Origin: Leptolyngbya sp. NIES-3755
Lineage (GTDB): Bacteria > Cyanobacteriota > Cyanobacteriia > Leptolyngbyales > Leptolyngbyaceae
Reading direction: 5' to 3'
DNA: 64,000 nucleotides
NCBI GenBank assembly: GCA_001548435.1
Contig: AP017308.1
Span: 753,030-817,029 of the forward strand
Shown: positions 34,618-46,374 of the stretch, in pieces
How positions within the stretch are numbered: the stretch's first letter is position 1
How the letters are laid out: each line of letters starts with the position of its first letter
Program-made: the position numbers and the translations under genes
The notes under the pieces: generated by a model
Databases searched by the model: none
What the model was told of the DNA's origin: nothing
What the model saw: the letters and a program-made list of their open reading frames with translations, nothing else

Positions 34618-35803
34618 TCACGCACCATTGTGTAATAGGAGCCATTGCTTTCCAACTCAAAAACTTTCCTAAAGGTTCTGCTCGTTGAACTGCAACTCTA
34701 GTCAGTTCTCCTCCAAGCTTGTTCTGCCAGTGAAAGAGTTGTGCTTCAGTTTCAACCGTGACCGCATTGGCAACCAATCGCCCCCCCGGACGCAGCGATC
34801 GCCAACAGGTTTCAATCACATCCGGTACAGTCAAACCTCCACCAATGAAAATCGTATCGGGTTGCGGTAAATCTTGCAGTGCGATCGGGGCTTTTCCAGC
34901 CGCAATTCTGAGATTTGGAACTCCTAATGTGTTGGCATTGTGAGCAATTAACTTCAAGCGATCGACATTCGATTCAATCGCGATCGCTCGACATCTGCGA
35001 TCCGACCGCATCCATTCGATCGCAATCGATCCACATCCCGCCCCCACATCCCAAAGTAATTGTCCAGGCTGTGGAGCAAGTGTTGAAAGCGTCACGGCTC
35101 GAACTTCTCGCTTGGTCAACTGTCCGTCATGGGCATAGATCGAGTCGGGAATTCCTGGAATGCGAGATGGCAGAGAAGTAGAAGAACAAGTAATCGCGAT
35201 CGTATTCAAATCAGCAATCTCTGTGTTGTTCCAATGGCTTGCTGTTCCCGAAATGATTCGCTCTTTTGTTCCGCCTAAATGTTCTAGAACAATCATCGAA
35301 CTCTCTGCTAAACCGCGATCGCATAACATTCGAGCAACAATGGCAGGCGTTTGTCGATCGGCACTTAACACTAAAATTTTTGCATTCGGATAAAGCACTA
35401 AATGAAGCGATGCTGGATCACGTCCACATAAGCTTATTGTTTCAACCTCAGAGAGCGACCAACCCAACCGAGAACAAGCCAGACTAAACGCGGAAGGAGC
35501 GGGAACGATCGTCATTTCATCGATCGCAATCCGACGAGTGCAGGTCACGCCAATTCCATAACACATCGGATCACCACTGGCTAATACGCAAACCGATTGT
35601 CCTCGATAGCTCAGCAATTTCTGAATCGAATCTTCGATCGGGGAACTCCAATGAATTCTCAACCGCGAATCGTCAGGCAACATAGCAAGATGTCGATCGC
35701 CCCCAACGAGAATTTTGGCTTGATCAATCAGCGATCGACCAATTGGAGCGACCCCTTCAAGCCCATCCTCGCCAATTCCTACGATCGATAACCACTTGTC
35801 CAT
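34601..35803 (-). CDS. cobL: precorrin-6Y C5,15-methyltransferase (decarboxylating)
   Basis: CobL methylates C5 and C15 and decarboxylates the C12 acetate of precorrin-6Y. It is a fusion. The N-terminal CbiE-type tetrapyrrole methylase runs to about 200, with VGIGEDGLEG, LASGDPMCYGIG and CGRDPASLHL. The C-terminal CbiT-type methylase has LLWDVGAGCGSIAIEWMRS and IFIGGGLTVPDV. The frame opens at 35833, but the ATG at 35803 begins the MDKWLSIVGIG strand directly. The gene starts 32 bases from tRNA-Lys, which runs the other way. Confidence 0.93.
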   Translation of the reverse strand: MDKWLSIVGIGEDGLEGVAPIGRSLIDQAKILVGGDRHLAMLPDDSRLRIHWSSPIEDSIQKLLSYRGQSVCVLASGDPMCYGIGVTCTRRIAIDEMTIVPAPSAFSLACSRLGWSLSEVETISLCGRDPASLHLVLYPNAKILVLSADRQTPAIVARMLCDRGLAESSMIVLEHLGGTKERIISGTASHWNNTEIADLNTIAITCSSTSLPSRIPGIPDSIYAHDGQLTKREVRAVTLSTLAPQPGQLLWDVGAGCGSIAIEWMRSDRRCRAIAIESNVDRLKLIAHNANTLGVPNLRIAAGKAPIALQDLPQPDTIFIGGGLTVPDVIETCWRSLRPGGRLVANAVTVETEAQLFHWQNKLGGELTRVAVQRAEPLGKFLSWKAMAPITQWCVIKAVE

Positions 35804-35834
35804 ACAATCTTTGATATGATGTGAAAAGAACATC

Positions 35835-35906
35835 GGATGACTAGCTCAACGGTAGAGCATCGGACTCTTAATCCGCTGGTTCTGGGTTCGAGTCCCAGGT
35901 CATCCA
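35835..35906 (+). tRNA. tRNA-Lys(CTT)
   Basis: The 72-nt cloverleaf has acceptor GGATGAC/GTCATCC, D-arm GCTC...GAGC, anticodon loop CTCTTAA (anticodon CTT), a five-pair T-arm CTGGG/CCCAG around TTCGAGT, and discriminator A. CCA is not encoded. The anticodon stem has one terminal T-C mismatch. The 3' half, from the anticodon stem onward, is duplicated 1.65 kb downstream, marking it as an integration target. Confidence 0.94.
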
Positions 35907-35908
35907 TC
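35871..35908 (+). repeat. left core direct repeat (3' half of tRNA-Lys)
   Basis: Thirty-eight bases, from the 3' side of the anticodon stem through the T-arm and acceptor plus two bases, recur exactly at 37523-37560. tRNA 3' halves are classical attachment sites for tyrosine integrases. Confidence 0.8.
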
Positions 35909-36042
35909 AAACCAAAAATAACACAGAATCTCTGAGAGTCAACCCTAGTAAGGCTTTCAGGGATTTTTTATTGTGCCTTGAGGGATTCAGAATCTAAGAA
36001 ACTCTTATCGAAAATAGTTCAACTTTTTTAGAGACAAGGTTT

Positions 36043-36062
36043 TGAACCCATTCTGAACCCAT
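36043..36062 (+). repeat. left tandem 9-mers, candidate arm-type sites
   Basis: TGAACCCAT occurs at 36043-36051 and 36054-36062, an 11-base period. One-base variants recur with the same period at the other end of the segment, which argues against chance. Confidence 0.55.
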
Positions 36063-36431
36063 GACCTCAAAACAGAGATATTTGATCGCTAAAACCAACA
36101 CATGAACACGCTCTGAGAGCCACTTAGATCCACGTTACTACAGTGTAGAAAGTAAGGGGTTCTACGTTCTCTGAGCATTGCTGCATACTCTCCACTCAAA
36201 ATAGAAAAGGTTCCGTTAAGAACATATTTGACATTCTGATGAGTTTTTGATAATGGTTTCAATTCAGAGACTTAGAGAGTAAACAGCTTATGACCGCATA
36301 TGCTGATAGCTTCTCTAATCAAGCGAGAATGACTTTTAAGCAGTTTTAGAAATACTGAGAGAAAATCGGTGTATCTGAAGGTGAGAAGCGGTTAGAAGGC
36401 AAATATGAGGGAGTGAGGAAAGACGATCGAC

Positions 36432-36462
36432 AAAAAAAGAAAGGCAGAGTATGACCTCTACC
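36432..36462 (-). terminator. terminator of the two-gene cargo operon
   Basis: Read on the minus strand, GGTAGAG and CTCTGCC form a seven-pair stem with one G-T pair over a six-base loop. TTTCTTTTTTT follows. It lies about 30 bases past the stop of the 108-residue ORF. Confidence 0.7.
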
Positions 36463-36491
36463 TTCCTTGGCTCTATGAAATGCGATCGCGC

Positions 36492-36818
36492 TTAACTAGC
36501 AATAGCGGTCTTTACTGGTACTCCATTAGTGAGATGAATTGCCATATCATCCCCTGGGAATGCCTCAAATAAAGCAAGCCTTTCATCGATCAGGTATTCG
36601 TCATCAATTACCTGATTTGGATCGCGTTGCTCATCTTTCAAGAGAGCAAACAGTTTCAAGCCGTTCTGAGTTTCGAGATACCGCAATTGTGGCTGATATC
36701 CCATTTGTTCCAGAAGTTCCAGAGCTTCACTCACAGAATGGCTACGAATCTCAGACAGATCAACGTACCAGAGAATTTGTCCTGCTTTTGGATGCAGTTG
36801 AATTTGATGCTTGTTCAA
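36492..36818 (-). CDS. hypothetical protein in the tRNA-Lys segment
   Basis: The 108-residue acidic protein has a helix-rich N-terminal half (SVSEALELLEQMGYQPQLRYLE) and an acidic centre (DDEYLIDERLALFEAFPGDD). There is no signal peptide or known motif. Its ATG overlaps the stop of the upstream gene by four bases and a terminator follows, so it is the second gene of a two-gene transcript. Function unknown. Confidence 0.6.
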   Translation of the reverse strand: MNKHQIQLHPKAGQILWYVDLSEIRSHSVSEALELLEQMGYQPQLRYLETQNGLKLFALLKDEQRDPNQVIDDEYLIDERLALFEAFPGDDMAIHLTNGVPVKTAIAS

Positions 36819-37219
36819 TTTTCTACCTCGCTTCTAAGTTGACATCTGTAGAGCTTCCCTTTGATGTGTTTCACTCCGAGATATTGAGTTACCCCTCCCC
36901 CATTGAGCGAGAGCCATTCAGCCCTCTTTCTGCATTTCTCTTGAGCATCTGCCAAGGAATTCGCAAAAATGTCTTCGTCTCGATCTTCAGTCTGAGCTTC
37001 TGGATCGTCAAGCATGGGATGACGATCAGGAACTAGAGGTTTACTGGTAGGTTGCGGTTTCATCGGTCTAGACGGTCTAGCAGGGGCACTGTAGCCGCCA
37101 CTACTGCCACTACCGTTAGGGAATGCGGGAACAGGACGGAACTCGCTAGGTTCACATCCCAGAGTGAGAAATGCGATCGACAAACTGAGAAGCCGATCGA
37201 TATTCGGAGATTGCTTCAT
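36815..37219 (-). CDS. hypothetical exported Pro/Ser-rich protein
   Basis: The 134 residues start with a hydrophobic segment ending in LTLGC, a weak lipobox-like or Sec signal. A low-complexity stretch rich in Pro, Ser and Gly (about 25-62) follows. The small C-terminal domain has two Cys (AQEKCRKRAEW, LYRCQLR) that could form a disulfide. It is the first gene of the cargo operon. The family is not recognised. Confidence 0.6.
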   Translation of the reverse strand: MKQSPNIDRLLSLSIAFLTLGCEPSEFRPVPAFPNGSGSSGGYSAPARPSRPMKPQPTSKPLVPDRHPMLDDPEAQTEDRDEDIFANSLADAQEKCRKRAEWLSLNGGGVTQYLGVKHIKGKLYRCQLRSEVEN

Positions 37220-37423
37220 AATGACTTAGCTCTGTAACTGTCTGGTAGTTAACAGGGTTAGGAGTGGGGAAGTACGGCTAATACCTCCTCACTCCGTTCT
37301 GTATTGACAGAATTTTAGCAGGGAAGGATCAGGCGTTCTAGAAGGCGAGAGGAAACTTTAGGATTCACAGGTTTAATATATTGATCGATACCGGGTAAAA
37401 AATGATATCAGTAGCCAAATCTC

Positions 37424-37467
37424 TGAACACATATTGAACACATTTCTAAAAACTCGGATGTGTTCAA
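37424..37467. repeat. right 9-mers and a perfect 10-bp inverted repeat, candidate arm-type sites
   Basis: TGAACACAT occurs at 37424-37432 and 37435-37443. TTGAACACAT (37434-37443) is then mirrored by ATGTGTTCAA at 37458-37467 across 14 bases. These three copies lie within 100 bases of the right core repeat. The same site type, as TGAACCCAT pairs, occurs at the left end. Confidence 0.6.
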
Positions 37468-37505
37468 TAGCTGAAACTGCTTGTATATATCGACTTCATG
37501 TTCAA

Positions 37506-37558
37506 GGATGACTAGACTTTTGATCCGCTGGTTCTGGGTTCGAGTCCCAGGTCATCCA
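37506..37558 (+). pseudogene. tRNA-Lys-like remnant lacking the D-arm
   Basis: The copy begins GGATGACTAG exactly like tRNA-Lys, skips 19 bases covering the D-arm and the start of the anticodon stem, and resumes as ACTTTTG. It then matches the tRNA exactly to its 3' end. Acceptor and T-stems can still form, but the 5' anticodon strand is gone. The loop would read TTT instead of CTT. It is unlikely to be a working tRNA. Confidence 0.7.
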
Positions 37559-37560
37559 TC
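37523..37560 (+). repeat. right core direct repeat
   Basis: Exact copy of 35871-35908. Sequence identity ends at 37560, two bases past the tRNA discriminator, as at the left copy. Confidence 0.8.
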
Positions 37561-37607
37561 TTTTCAATGTCATGATCAGCCCGAAGGTTGACTGATCATT
37601 AACACAC

Positions 37608-38951
37608 TTAACAGTTCTGCAATCGCGTCAGTGCTACGACCAAACTATCTACCGAAGCTCGAACGGTCGAAGCAGGAGTGCCAGAATTCACCAAGATACT
37701 AAAGACGATCGGTGAATAATTTCGCGGAGTCACATAGCCCGATAGTGCTACCACACCCGAAATGGTTCCGGTCTTGGCAGATACAATTCCTTGGGCAGGT
37801 GTTCCCTGAAATCGACTGCTCAACGTGCCGCTCGTCCCTGCAACCGGAAGCGATCGACGAAACGTGGCTGCATCGGGTCTTAGTGCCATTGCTTGCAAAG
37901 TCTGGACAAATGCTTCTGCACTCGCTCGATTGCTGGCAGCGAGTCCTGAACCATCCACCATCCGATATCGATTCGGATTCACCCCTAACTCAGTGAGAAT
38001 CGATCGCACCGCTGCAACTCCGCTGGTGGTCGTATCTAAACTATTCGGGTCTTGCAAACGCCCTAAGGTTTTCAGTAATGCTTCTGCGTAGGCATTGTCG
38101 CTATCTTGATTAGTGGCAAAAATCAAAGTTGATAACGGTGGTGAACTGACAGAAGCCAATTCAACTTCTCCTTGAGGGGCAGGAGTTCGTTTTACGAGGG
38201 TTGAATTTTTCACTTGAATGCCTGCACTTGTCAACCGACTGCGAAACTCTCCCACAAAATAGTTCCCTGGATTCGGAATCGCATAAGAGTAGGTGCTGTT
38301 CTGATTCAGCATCAAACTATTAATCAGCGGTGCGTAAGGTTCACCTCGATGGTTTGGATTCCAGCTCGGATTAAATTCGGCTCCTCGAAAAGCGGTGTCA
38401 TCTCCGATCAGTTGATCCACTTGTCGAATTCCACGCTGTCGGAGTTGCTGCGTGAGCGAATTTAACTGAGCCGTTCCAAAACTCGGATCACCTTGACCAA
38501 TGACTCGCAGCGTTACCAAGGCGGGAGTGTTGCTATTTCCAAACACCGGAGTGCGAATTTGGTACTGTGCGCCCAATCGAACCAGTGCAGCAGCGGTTGT
38601 AAAAATCTTGTTGTTCGAGGCGGGTGCGAGTTGAGTAAACGGATTACGGGCGTACAAGTTACTTCTAGCACCGGGAGCGCCCTGAGTTTGAACCAGGACA
38701 CTCCAACTGGCGGGTAAGCGATCGACAATTTGATTCAATCGACTGCCCAACTGTGCGGGACAAATTCCCCCATTGACTGGAGCTTGCGTCGGACGGGCGG
38801 GAGTCGTTGGACGGGGCGGTAAGGGAAGCGGGGTGGGCTGAGTGCGAGGGGGGAGGGGAAGCGGAGTTTGAGCGTGAACTGCGAGCGTTTGAACTGCGAT
38901 CGACCAGGCAAGCGAGGCGCAAATCAGCGGAGCGAACTTCATAAGAGACAA
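37608..38951 (-). CDS. dacB: D-alanyl-D-alanine carboxypeptidase/endopeptidase (PBP4, S13 family)
   Basis: This periplasmic enzyme trims peptidoglycan stem peptides or cuts crosslinks. The 447 residues comprise a signal peptide (about 1-27), a Pro-rich linker of LPLPPR-type repeats and the S13 domain. The three penicillin-binding motifs are intact: SNNK at Ser112-Lys115, SDN at 284-286 and KTG at 393-395. It is monocistronic, next to the right end of the tRNA-Lys segment. Confidence 0.94.
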   Translation of the reverse strand: MSLMKFAPLICASLAWSIAVQTLAVHAQTPLPLPPRTQPTPLPLPPRPTTPARPTQAPVNGGICPAQLGSRLNQIVDRLPASWSVLVQTQGAPGARSNLYARNPFTQLAPASNNKIFTTAAALVRLGAQYQIRTPVFGNSNTPALVTLRVIGQGDPSFGTAQLNSLTQQLRQRGIRQVDQLIGDDTAFRGAEFNPSWNPNHRGEPYAPLINSLMLNQNSTYSYAIPNPGNYFVGEFRSRLTSAGIQVKNSTLVKRTPAPQGEVELASVSSPPLSTLIFATNQDSDNAYAEALLKTLGRLQDPNSLDTTTSGVAAVRSILTELGVNPNRYRMVDGSGLAASNRASAEAFVQTLQAMALRPDAATFRRSLPVAGTSGTLSSRFQGTPAQGIVSAKTGTISGVVALSGYVTPRNYSPIVFSILVNSGTPASTVRASVDSLVVALTRLQNC

Positions 38952-43749: not shown

Positions 43750-43822
43750 GGCTCAGTAGCTCAGTGGTTAGAGCAGGGGACTCATAAGCCCAAGGTCGCA
43801 AGTTCAAATCTCGCCTGAGCCA
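43750..43822 (+). tRNA. tRNA-Met(CAT), elongator type
   Basis: A 73-nt cloverleaf with acceptor GGCTCAG/CTGAGCC, D-arm GCTC...GAGC and loop CTCATAA (anticodon CAT), discriminator A, no encoded CCA. The acceptor begins with a paired G, unlike initiator tRNA. tRNA-Ile2(CAT) is the alternative. The anticodon stem has mismatches at both ends and the T-stem has one A-C mismatch, so some erosion or editing is possible. A broken integrase gene follows by 140 bases. Confidence 0.88.
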
Positions 43823-43906
43823 TAAGGGAAATCAAGATACAGTAGGGGTTTTGAGGAATTCCTGCTGTTTTGCGTTGGGTCATGTTGGCTCAGTTTGGGC
43901 TAGAAA

Positions 43907-43926
43907 TTGGGGTAAATTTGGGGTAA
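43907..43926 (+). repeat. tandem TTGGGGTAA 9-mers, candidate integrase arm sites
   Basis: TTGGGGTAA occurs at 43907-43915 and 43918-43926, an 11-base period. This is between the tRNA and the integrase and matches the spacing of the tandem 9-mers at the tRNA-Lys segment. Two reverse-complement copies lie in the integrase coding region (44209 and 44221). Confidence 0.5.
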
Positions 43927-43962
43927 AACGTTTGAGTATGAATGTTCCTGTTTAGGAGACAC

Positions 43963-45120
43963 ATGAATGTACTCAAACAACCCGTCACGACGCGCTTTCA
44001 AAGGTTCAGATCAAAGTTTCAAACGATCGCATTCAACTTGTCTTTTCGGTGGCTAGCAAACGTCACTACCTCTCCACTGGACTTGCGGATACTCCTAGTA
44101 ATCGCAAAATGGCAGAACGCAAGGCAGCGATGATCGAAGATGACATTTTCAAGGACAGATTTGATCCAACGCTGGAAAAATATAAGCCACAATCGGCTCT
44201 CAGCACCGTTACCCCAAGTTTTACCCCAAGTGCGCCGCCAAAAACTTCGCTGATCGAGTTGTGGGAGCAGTACACCGAGTTTCAAAGCGCTCATCTCGAA
44301 GAAACGACGATCATTCGGGATTATGGCAAAGTCGAGAAGCGTCTTCGCAAAATGCCTAAGCCGAACCTTGAGGATGCAATTGCGATCCAGACTTATCTGC
44401 TCAAGAATTACGCGGCAGAAACGGCAAAGCGTACCCTGAAGCAACTGAGTGCTTGCTGCGAATGGGCAATGCGGAAGAAGCTGGTGTCTGACAATCCGTT
44501 CAAGGAGCTTGCGAAAGAAATTCGGACAAAAAAGAAGAGTCGGGTGTCGCGCAAGCCGTTCTCTCGGACTTGTGTTCCAGCCATCATCTCAGCTTTTGAG
44601 AATGACACTTATTCCTCGAAGTTCTCTCCGATTCGGCATTCTTTCTATGCGCCGTATGTCAAATTTCTGTTTCACACAGGATGCCGACCCGAAGAAGCGA
44701 TCGCACTGAAATGGAAGCACATTGAGAAGAATCGTATTCACTTCTGTGAAGCAGTCGCTACAGATGTGAGAATTCGTAAGTCTACTAAGACACATGAACC
44801 ACGCTACTTCCCGATCAATGCAGAATTGCAGCGCATTCTAGATGCGATTAGACCGCAAGATTGCAGTCCAAATGACTTGGTGTTTCCAGCCAGAAACGGG
44901 AAAGAACTGGATACGCACAACTTCTTGAATCGCGTCTGGAAACCTGTAGTCAAGCAGTTAGTGACAGCAGGCAAGGTAAAAGAATACTTGCCTCAGTACA
45001 ACTGTCGTCACACATTCATTACTCTGTGCTTAGAAGATGGAATTTCTTCGCGTCGGGTCGCTGAATGGTGTGGGTACGTCTGTTGCAGTAATCGAAGAGC
45101 ATTACGCAGGGACAATCAAC
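43963..45120 (+). pseudogene. tyrosine-type site-specific integrase with two frameshifts
   Basis: AGGAG precedes ATG 43963 (MNVLKQPVTTR), but the arm-binding domain (VQIKVSNDRIQLVFSVASKRHYL) continues in another frame. The shift falls near the TTT at 43996-43998. The central and catalytic domains are then open, with HTGCRPEEAIALKW (first Arg) and NCRHTF. Near 45072 a second shift occurs. The catalytic-tyrosine segment VAVIEEHYAGTINLQ is in the next frame, while the open frame gives nonsense residues. The C-terminus then runs into the IS4-type element. The gene should be inactive unless both shifts are recoded. It lies just downstream of tRNA-Met, its likely target. Confidence 0.82.
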
Positions 45121-45138
45121 CTTCAGGGGGTGACAACG
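45121..45138 (+). repeat. left terminal inverted repeat of the IS4-type element
   Basis: Eighteen bases, perfectly complementary to 46378-46395. The exact outer boundary could be three bases further in (CAGGGGG...), because no target duplication fixes it. Confidence 0.85.
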
Positions 45139-45189
45139 GGCTTGAAAGGTAGCAGCGATGCCGGATAGCAGCGATAAGCTCAGAAAAAA

Positions 45190-45216
45190 AGGAGTGAAAC
45201 CAATCGATTCACTCCT
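45190..45216 (+). promoter_or_regulatory. hairpin masking the transposase ribosome-binding site
   Basis: AGGAGTGAA (45190-45198) pairs perfectly with TTCACTCCT (45208-45216) over nine bases, directly before the transposase start. The 5' arm holds the only AGGAG-like sequence here, so transcripts entering from outside would have it sequestered. IS10 and IS50, members of the same family, use comparable fold-back protection. Confidence 0.55.
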
Positions 45217-45228
45217 ACATTGTTAAAA

Positions 45229-46374
45229 ATGTTGCCTATATTCTATCAATCCTGTTTGAAATCGCAACTCTCGGCTGCTCAATTCATCACGCTCGAAATC
45301 CTTGTCGAACTGTTGCAGCAAGAACGCAGAATTACGATTGAACGACTTGCAACGCTATTTCCCCAACCGATTCTATTTGAGAGTAGACGGCGCAATCTGC
45401 AACGATTCCTGAGTTTGCCCCAGATGACACCGGAAGCGTTATGGTTTCCCATCGCTAAGCAGTGGATTAAGCAACACATTCCGCGTGGACAAACCTTACA
45501 GATTGCACTTGACCGAACGCAATGGGATAAACATAACCTGATGATGGTCAGTTTTATTTATCAGAACCGAGCCATCCCGTTGTATTGGATATGGCTCGAT
45601 AAACAAGGACAGAGTTCTCTCAAGGATCAACAAAAAGTGTTGCGCCCTGTATTTCAATTGTTGAAAAAACGTCGCTTTGTCTTATTAGGAGACCGAGAAT
45701 TCCACAGTATCGAACTCGCTGCTTGGTGTGTGCAGAACCGAGTCTCGTTCGTGTTTCGTTTACCGAAGAGTACGACTGTTCAACCAGAGACAGGTGCAAG
45801 CTTTTCGCGCCTTGATCACCTGCCGCAAGTTCCCGGTGCTGCCGAACAATATCTGCAAATCCAAGTGACACAAAAACGCGGGTTCGGCAGACATAATCTG
45901 GTGATTTATCAGAAACGCGCTTATGCTCGATCCACAACGCCTGAGGTGTGGTACTTGCTCACCAATCTCACTGATGTCAATCAAGTGCTGTTTCACTACG
46001 ATTTCAGGTTCTGCATCGAGCCAGGATTTAAGGACTTGAAATCCGGTGGCTACCACCTCGAAGATTGCCATGCTGATCCACGTCGATTTACCGCTCTACT
46101 CGTACTCATGACCCTCGCCTATTCACTCGCTTCAATCCAGGGACATCGCATTCGCAAAAAACAAGTGCAGCGCTATGTCGGTCGAGTCAAAGAACCCAAA
46201 CGCACTCAAAATCGCCACAGCCAATTTTGGATCGGCTTGTATGGAAGTTTATGGATTGGCAGTCTCAATTTGTGGTCAACCTTGGCGCATCAACTCATGG
46301 CACTCAAACCCCAAAAACGCACCTTTTTCCAGCGAGGTCTGAACGCCATTTCCTTGATCCAGTCTGCTTTGTAG
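45229..46374 (+). CDS. IS4-family transposase
   Basis: The 381-residue DDE transposase (384 if TTG 45220 is used) has LDRTQWDKHNLMMVS (first Asp), LLGDREFHSIELAAW (second Asp) and YDFRFCIEPGFKDLKSG. The last gives the YREK-type signature Y-2-R-3-E-6-K with the catalytic Glu. The gene is intact and ends three bases before the right inverted repeat, so the element may still be active. Confidence 0.93.
   Translation: MLPIFYQSCLKSQLSAAQFITLEILVELLQQERRITIERLATLFPQPILFESRRRNLQRFLSLPQMTPEALWFPIAKQWIKQHIPRGQTLQIALDRTQWDKHNLMMVSFIYQNRAIPLYWIWLDKQGQSSLKDQQKVLRPVFQLLKKRRFVLLGDREFHSIELAAWCVQNRVSFVFRLPKSTTVQPETGASFSRLDHLPQVPGAAEQYLQIQVTQKRGFGRHNLVIYQKRAYARSTTPEVWYLLTNLTDVNQVLFHYDFRFCIEPGFKDLKSGGYHLEDCHADPRRFTALLVLMTLAYSLASIQGHRIRKKQVQRYVGRVKEPKRTQNRHSQFWIGLYGSLWIGSLNLWSTLAHQLMALKPQKRTFFQRGLNAISLIQSAL

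Follow-up and report, generated by a model that had tools for sequence, protein, structure and literature searches.

A 1.65-kb segment at tRNA-Lys in Leptolyngbya sp. NIES-3755, probably the integrase-deleted relic of a small integrative element

The 1.65-kb segment that follows tRNA-Lys(CTT) in Leptolyngbya sp. NIES-3755 is probably a CIME-like relic, that is, a small integrative element from which the integrase has been deleted. This reading rests on features legible in the sequence itself: the direct repeats and arm-type pairs that bound the segment, an integrase-bearing sister element with the same module at tRNA-Arg(CCT) of the same genome (locus L046), a rule of 11-bp spacing in the arm-type pairs of related integrase loci and an apparent absence of matching arm pairs from the rest of the genome. 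The kind of element is already known; what the present case adds is the arm rule, the sister and the finding that cargo differs behind one signal peptide, and the relic shows by example how an integrase-less island can be traced to its source. Searching the open-access literature by title and abstract start returned no account of this element, which may have been published elsewhere.

Anatomy of the tRNA-Lys element

Coordinates refer to the window, i.e. the whole 64-kb stretch of DNA that was analysed, unless a locus is named. The features of the element are as follows:

35835-35906, + strand: intact tRNA-Lys(CTT), forming an attL-like left junction (ARAGORN; Rfam 69.7 bits)
35863-35908, + strand: left copy of the core direct repeat, 46 nt, of which 35871-35908 is exact
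35922-35975 (approximate), + strand: terminator-like hairpin with a T run, between tRNA-Lys and the left arm pair (fold of 35909-35985, z -2.59)
36043-36062, + strand: left arm-type pair, TGAACCCAT twice with an 11-bp period (copies at 36043 and 36054)
36103-36505, + strand: module in common with the sister (89 % identity over 407 columns; L046:5079-5483), with 36103 as the apparent joint
36492-36818, - strand: ORF1, 108 aa, without a known family; 12 of the 42 genomes of the order, this one among them, have homologues
36815-37219, - strand: ORF2, 134 aa, with a lipoprotein-like signal peptide and, at the C-terminus, a small domain in which two cysteines are conserved; 4-nt overlap with ORF1
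37163-37364, + strand: second segment in common with the sister (86 % over 204 columns; L046:6071-6274), comprising the signal-peptide codons and the upstream region of the cargo operon
37424-37443, + strand: right arm-type pair, TGAACACAT twice with an 11-bp period (copies at 37424 and 37435)
37458-37466, - strand: third arm-type copy, inverted
37506-37558, + strand: right junction, a broken tRNA-Lys copy made up of the first 9 bases and, after a gap of 19 nt, the 3' part, which has two changes in the anticodon loop
37515-37560, + strand: right copy of the core direct repeat

The original prediction described a core repeat bounding some 1.65 kb at tRNA-Lys, and this was borne out: the two copies are 96 % identical over 46 nt at a spacing of 1652 bp, and 38 nt of them (35871-35908 and 37523-37560) are exact. 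The same prediction described the duplicated part as the 3' half of the tRNA, which holds for the 38-nt exact copy and falls short at the right end, where the copy is more than a 3' half and also keeps the first 9 bases of tRNA-Lys, GGATGACTA, at 37506-37514, abutting the right repeat with 19 bases absent between. Rfam aligned 37506-37558 to tRNA model positions 1-71 with a score of 26.7 bits, just below the gathering score of 29, and the right core differs from tRNA-Lys at two positions, both in the anticodon loop. This is the one partial tRNA-Lys copy in the genome. Across 35700-37700, Rfam returned the two tRNA copies, one sub-threshold match on the opposite strand of the tRNA and nothing further, and in a search of plasmid DNA the match was to the tRNA among the matches listed (20 of 23 records). 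Hairpins were also found after tRNA-Met in the window and after tRNA-Arg in the sister. At the right junction, both small elements retain part of the tRNA 5' end (9/9 bases for Lys, at 37506-37514; weaker for Arg, at L046:6461-6471), and none was apparent by eye in six other partial tRNA-Lys copies of relatives.

Tandem 9-mer pairs with an 11-base period occupy both ends, with an inverted third copy on the right, just as originally described. Counting 9-mers that use more than two letters, for which the chance expectation is about 0.24 (64000/4^9), perfect pairs of 11-bp period occur at three places in the 64-kb window, namely both ends of the element and an integrase remnant at tRNA-Met. That such a pair is not common genome-wide, as the original prediction required, was also tested: the spaced pair TGAACMCATNNTGAACMCAT matches the 6.76-Mb genome exactly at two sites, each inside the tRNA-Lys element, and allowing 2 mismatches added one further genomic place, as it did for the reversed control. 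Single TGAACMCAT 9-mers occur twice more in the window. With the tRNA 3' part repeated directly at both of its ends, an intact tRNA at one end and arm-type pairs of the expected spacing inside both ends, the segment has the anatomy of an integrative element of tRNA genes. The second left arm copy and the bases that follow it (36054-36067) match the complement of the tRNA-Arg T-arm (L046:2226-2239) over 14 nt (E 0.36), possibly by chance.

The cargo consists of two small genes on the minus strand, as had been proposed, and both frames are open. ORF2 and ORF1 are presumably translationally coupled and the signal peptide of ORF2 is presumably lipoprotein-like, both readings being taken from the sequence and its motifs. 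ORF1 homologues occur at 14 places in the 12 genomes; reading of the loci showed a small ORF2-like gene directly before ORF1 at L045, L105 and L108, and a shortened version at L099 and L102; tblastn recovered ORF2 at L045 and L102 only. The two cysteines of the C-terminal domain are kept in an alignment of seven ORF2 sequences. The cargo pair recurs in other cyanobacteria, and the sister carries a different pair behind the same signal peptide, which is a testable lead on what such small elements carry. The small genes around ORF2 and ORF1 are of similar kinds at L045, L105 and L108, judged by eye to encode a coiled membrane protein and proline-rich and surface-like proteins, and these surroundings look like one type of mobile element.

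Neither Pfam nor PHROGs returned a family for ORF1 or ORF2 (no PHROG at E 1), and the one NCBIfam match to ORF1 was at chance level. ORF1 matched nothing in the phage collection and a single entry in the plasmid collection. The packaging, capsid and regulatory genes of a phage satellite were not recognised, there being no PHROG match and no match of ORF1 in the phage collection. A structure of ORF1 predicted from the single sequence had a mean pLDDT of 50 and was set aside.

The tRNA-Arg sister and the 11-bp arm rule

In the same genome, a 4.27-kb element is bounded by a 50-nt repeat (98 % identity, spacing 4273) at tRNA-Arg(CCT) (L046:2181-2256). It encodes an integrase of 426 aa (L046:2462-3742; PF00589 above cut-off) and an SprT-like protein (L046:4121-4786), and its arm pairs are TTGAGTACG on the left and CTGAGTACG on the right. 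The left ends of the two elements are laid out alike, with 136 nt from the tRNA to the first arm copy in the tRNA-Lys element and 137 nt in the sister. Between left arm pair and common module, the sister is longer by about 2.63 kb, and adding this to the tRNA-Lys element (1652 + 2625 = 4277) comes to within 4 bp of the sister's 4273. The cargo between the two common stretches differs, the sister having another gene pair: ORF2 and its counterpart are alike at 18 of 20 signal-peptide residues, with no BLAST alignment for the rest of ORF2, and ORF1 gave chance alignments only with its counterpart. No transfer genes were recognised in the sister, either in its ORF list or by a family scan of four of its proteins, and a viral-contig search with the tRNA-Arg integrase returned no relative. 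Among the relatives examined (6/7), the sister's right-hand gene was not found beside tRNA-Arg and synteny at tRNA-Arg was absent. Being small and apparently complete, the sister would allow integration, excision and arm specificity to be studied in a 4.3-kb element.

Several further observations concern the shared parts and the tRNA-Arg gene. The common module contains, at 36290-36451, a frame of 54 codons with two stops that both elements of this genome share; at E 0.1, the remaining 41 genomes of the order gave no match to it. The module was also considered as a structured RNA; folding on the two sequences gave 3 of 119 pairs with a double change, and we make no such claim. Upstream of the cargo operon, a hairpin at 37255-37289 is strong (z -4.4), and its counterpart in the sister is weaker and of other sequence (z -2.0). 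tRNA-Arg(CCT) is interrupted by about 0.2 kb in G006 (L203) and by about 0.65 kb in G002 (L207), perhaps by the intron known from cyanobacterial tRNA-Arg.

The 11-bp spacing recurs at other integrases. We compared 24 sources, comprising the window, L046, seven further integrase loci (six from this genome and one from G002) and 15 loci of the order picked among the best matches to the tRNA-Arg integrase, so that the sample is one selected as relatives of one integrase. They contain 25 integrase neighbourhoods; in 16, the 3' end of a same-strand tRNA is no more than 700 bp upstream, and the other 9 have no such tRNA. A 9-mer pair at period 11 was present in 14 of these 16 tRNA-to-integrase gaps with at most 1 mismatch, and a perfect pair in 10. 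The control periods 9, 10, 12, 13, 14, 15 and 16 gave 2, 2, 4, 2, 1, 1 and 1 of 16, respectively, with at most 1 mismatch, and 1, 0, 2, 0, 0, 0 and 0 of 16 for perfect pairs.

A third locus of this genome, L175, pairs tRNA-Thr(TGT) with a truncated integrase; its left end is 86 % like that of the tRNA-Arg element over 141 nt, and 10 kb of downstream sequence contained no second tRNA-Thr repeat. The left end of the tRNA-Lys element resembles that of tRNA-Thr over 28 nt at an identical offset (82 %, E 3e-4) and that of tRNA-Arg over 24 nt (83 %, E 0.015). A different 11-bp-period pair, ATTTAGGGA, lies near the far tRNA-Lys repeat in G001 and G002, so the arm rule extends beyond the integrase type of the sister. 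Where 9-mers paired at an 11-bp period lie immediately inside a tRNA, they mark likely att sites of cyanobacterial integrases even if the integrase is missing, so that orphan and decayed elements can be sought by their anatomy.

Related arrangements were seen in passing. The tRNA-Met relic in the window (43750-46374) has an arm pair TTGGGGTAA of 11-bp period at 43907 and a tyrosine integrase frame at 44049-45152, and a transposase-like gene (by eye) at 45220-46374 seems to have cut the integrase end. At L188 (G001:C30), a single tRNA-Gly(GCC) is flanked by two integrases, one on each strand, and an 11-bp-period pair lies next to either of them. Further repeats of 11-bp period, CGGAGTCAGTT, occur near the tRNA in the tRNA-Lys islands of G002 (L040:10202-10596) and G001 (L042:4643-4930), standing away from the far-end integrase of these islands.

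tRNA-Lys islands of relatives and the search for a helper integrase

A partial tRNA-Lys copy lies 17-33 kb downstream of the gene in at least four of seven genus relatives (G001, G002, G005 and G007) and in G012, these counts being lower bounds as five candidates per genome were scored. The resulting islands hold another type of integrase, of 373-374 aa and 43-89 % identical mutually, and the five islands gave no tblastn match to the Arg and Met integrases. The 373-aa frame beside the far repeat of G005 has relatives in G007 (89 %), G002 (66 %), G001 (65 %; 78 % on a second contig) and, as two frames, in G012 (48 % and 43 %); G007 additionally encodes a 186-aa PF00589 protein, short but scoring above the cut-off. 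Two homologues of this type occur in the genome under study (40 % over 384 columns; 37 % over 180 columns, partial), with no TGAACMCAT nearby. The search proposed at the outset, for relatives with TGAACMCAT tandem sites at tRNA-Lys and an integrase gene present, found no integrase-bearing tRNA-Lys element with such arms. The junction of tRNA-Lys with dacB is found in this genome only, among eight of the genus: in all seven relatives dacB lies away from tRNA-Lys and the nearest 1.5 kb around it contain no tRNA. What follows tRNA-Lys, or the far repeat, varies among these relatives, and an empty tRNA-Lys site was seen in none of them.

Within the tRNA-Lys element, the ORF list contains no integrase. 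A profile of 15 related integrases matched the tRNA-Met remnant and nothing else in the window, where the tRNA-Lys-island type had no match either. PF00589 has 22 matches in the genome, located in the window, L046 and 18 further loci; these 18 together with L175 make up 19 loci (L175-L180 and L213-L225), none of which contains a TGAACMCAT 9-mer. No helper integrase with matching arm sites was thus found in the genome. Outside it, arm-pattern searches covered exact matches. A looser pattern (with N) gave nine matches in six of 388 genomes of the class, the present one included with two of the matches, compared with two for the reversed control, and the sites in the five other genomes had no tRNA and no match to the Arg or Met integrase within about 1.5 kb either side (less at one contig end). 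Among genome contigs, TGAACMCATNNTGAACMCAT occurred in 42 stretches from many phyla, which is near chance (estimate about 30); two of these, L113 (cyanobacterial) and L123, had no tRNA, and L113 was also without a match to the tested proteins.

Proposed origin and comparison with known systems

We propose that a small integrative element, whose tyrosine integrase would have recognised a tRNA-Lys(CTT) core and flanking TGAACMCAT arm sites in tandem with an 11-bp period, integrated into the 3' part of tRNA-Lys, restoring the gene at the left end of the element. A later deletion from the left arm pair to the common module, with its joint near 36103, would have removed about 2.6 kb with the integrase and, by analogy with the tRNA-Arg sister, an SprT-like gene. 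What remained would be attL and attR with their arm sites, the common module and the two-gene cargo operon. The claim that the segment is a tyrosine-recombinase substrate without an integrase of its own draws support from the sister and the 11-bp-pair rule, and the suggestion that it is the relic of a larger element from a sister that carries both an integrase and the same module. The insertion, the integrase content of the lost stretch, the integrase type and the present immobility are what we infer from this anatomy. Because the tRNA-Lys islands of five relatives carry another type, either type may have placed the element; the common module and the left end favour the sister's type, and it is with moderate preference that we take the lost integrase to have been sister-like.

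The original prediction offered a satellite mobilised in trans as the other possibility. An integrase, resident or incoming, could still recognise the core and the arms in trans, in the way that MITEs are moved by transposases, and core and arm sites retained at both ends, two open cargo genes and the two homologues of the island integrase (one partial) would suit such a satellite. We consider it improbable, given that the genome has no second exact arm pair, no TGAACMCAT 9-mer around its other integrases and one partial tRNA-Lys copy only, and that, of 387 other class genomes, the five that have the looser exact pattern include none with a tRNA or an Arg/Met integrase match in the stretch around it. 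The right core, moreover, is a broken tRNA with two anticodon-loop differences. In the available text of one source, mismatches between recombination partners are typically deleterious, with named exceptions, and strand exchange in the anticodon loop is common for mycobacteriophages at tRNA genes (PMC10865867); the two changes would matter if strand exchange occurs in that loop. Since no cognate arm pair was found near an integrase, in this genome or by exact matching outside it, the satellite is not the best reading, and the tRNA-Lys element is probably unable to move now.

It is also rather unlikely, in our view, that the island integrase of the relatives placed the element, with module and cargo acquired from the tRNA-Arg element by recombination and the integrase later lost or never present in cis. 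That integrase type does sit at tRNA-Lys in five relatives, and pieces have apparently been exchanged, since the two elements have different arms and cargo but modules that are 86-89 % alike; however, the left-end spacing and the short left-end match agree with the tRNA-Arg and tRNA-Thr elements, and the far-repeat pair of G001 and G002 is a different sequence. We give very little credence to an origin without site-specific integration, in which the tRNA-Lys region was duplicated in tandem, unrelated DNA was inserted and the second tRNA decayed. The piece of tRNA 5' end in the right copy and the tRNA-Lys/dacB synteny unique to this genome among eight of the genus would fit a duplication, which nevertheless leaves unexplained the 11-bp-period pairs at both ends and a sister with an integrase, the same module and a weaker tRNA 5' fossil. 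Returning to the integrase-deleted relic, a broader idea, which we hold to be doubtful, is that the genome houses a family of very small elements built from exchangeable parts: a recombination module (core, arm pair and integrase), a shared 400-bp module and a two-gene cargo slot, where the signal peptide of a secreted or lipoprotein-like gene is kept and its mature protein and partner are swapped between elements. Integrase-less copies of such a family would persist as cargo islands and may still move if an integrase with matching arm sites arrives.

Among known systems, MITEs and other hitchers mobilised in trans are likewise short and have recombination sites and no recombinase (PMC11389934, available text), but the tRNA-Lys element is a single copy with these ends and no helper was found for it. 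Paired arm sites, and a stem-loop that separates the core from an arm site, are described for mycobacteriophage attP (PMC3203893, available text). The attP of phages with a lambda-like integrase (mycobacteriophage cluster K) resembles the element in its core in a tmRNA or tRNA gene, its two-sided arm pairs and its stem-loop, as far as the available texts describe it (PMC3203893, PMC10865867), whereas the tRNA-Lys element has no recognised phage genes and its arm sequences differ. The 17-kb tRNA-Lys element of G012 (L045) has the same tRNA and the ORF2-ORF1 pair but another integrase type in two frames, no perfect 11-bp-period pair, an AAA ATPase and many other genes.

A CIME is described in the available text of PMC5704250 as a decayed remnant that keeps attL and attR and has lost the integrase, and the tRNA-Lys element is alike in being a small remnant at a tRNA gene that keeps attL and attR without an integrase. 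Its right core is changed at two bases, its integrase-bearing ancestor is postulated from the tRNA-Arg sister, and that ancestor is not known to be an ICE or IME, no transfer gene having been recognised in the sister. The sister itself differs in having an integrase and an SprT-like gene, another tRNA, other arms and another cargo pair; it shares with the tRNA-Lys element the module, the left-end layout, arm pairs of 11-bp period and some of the tRNA 5' end at the right junction.
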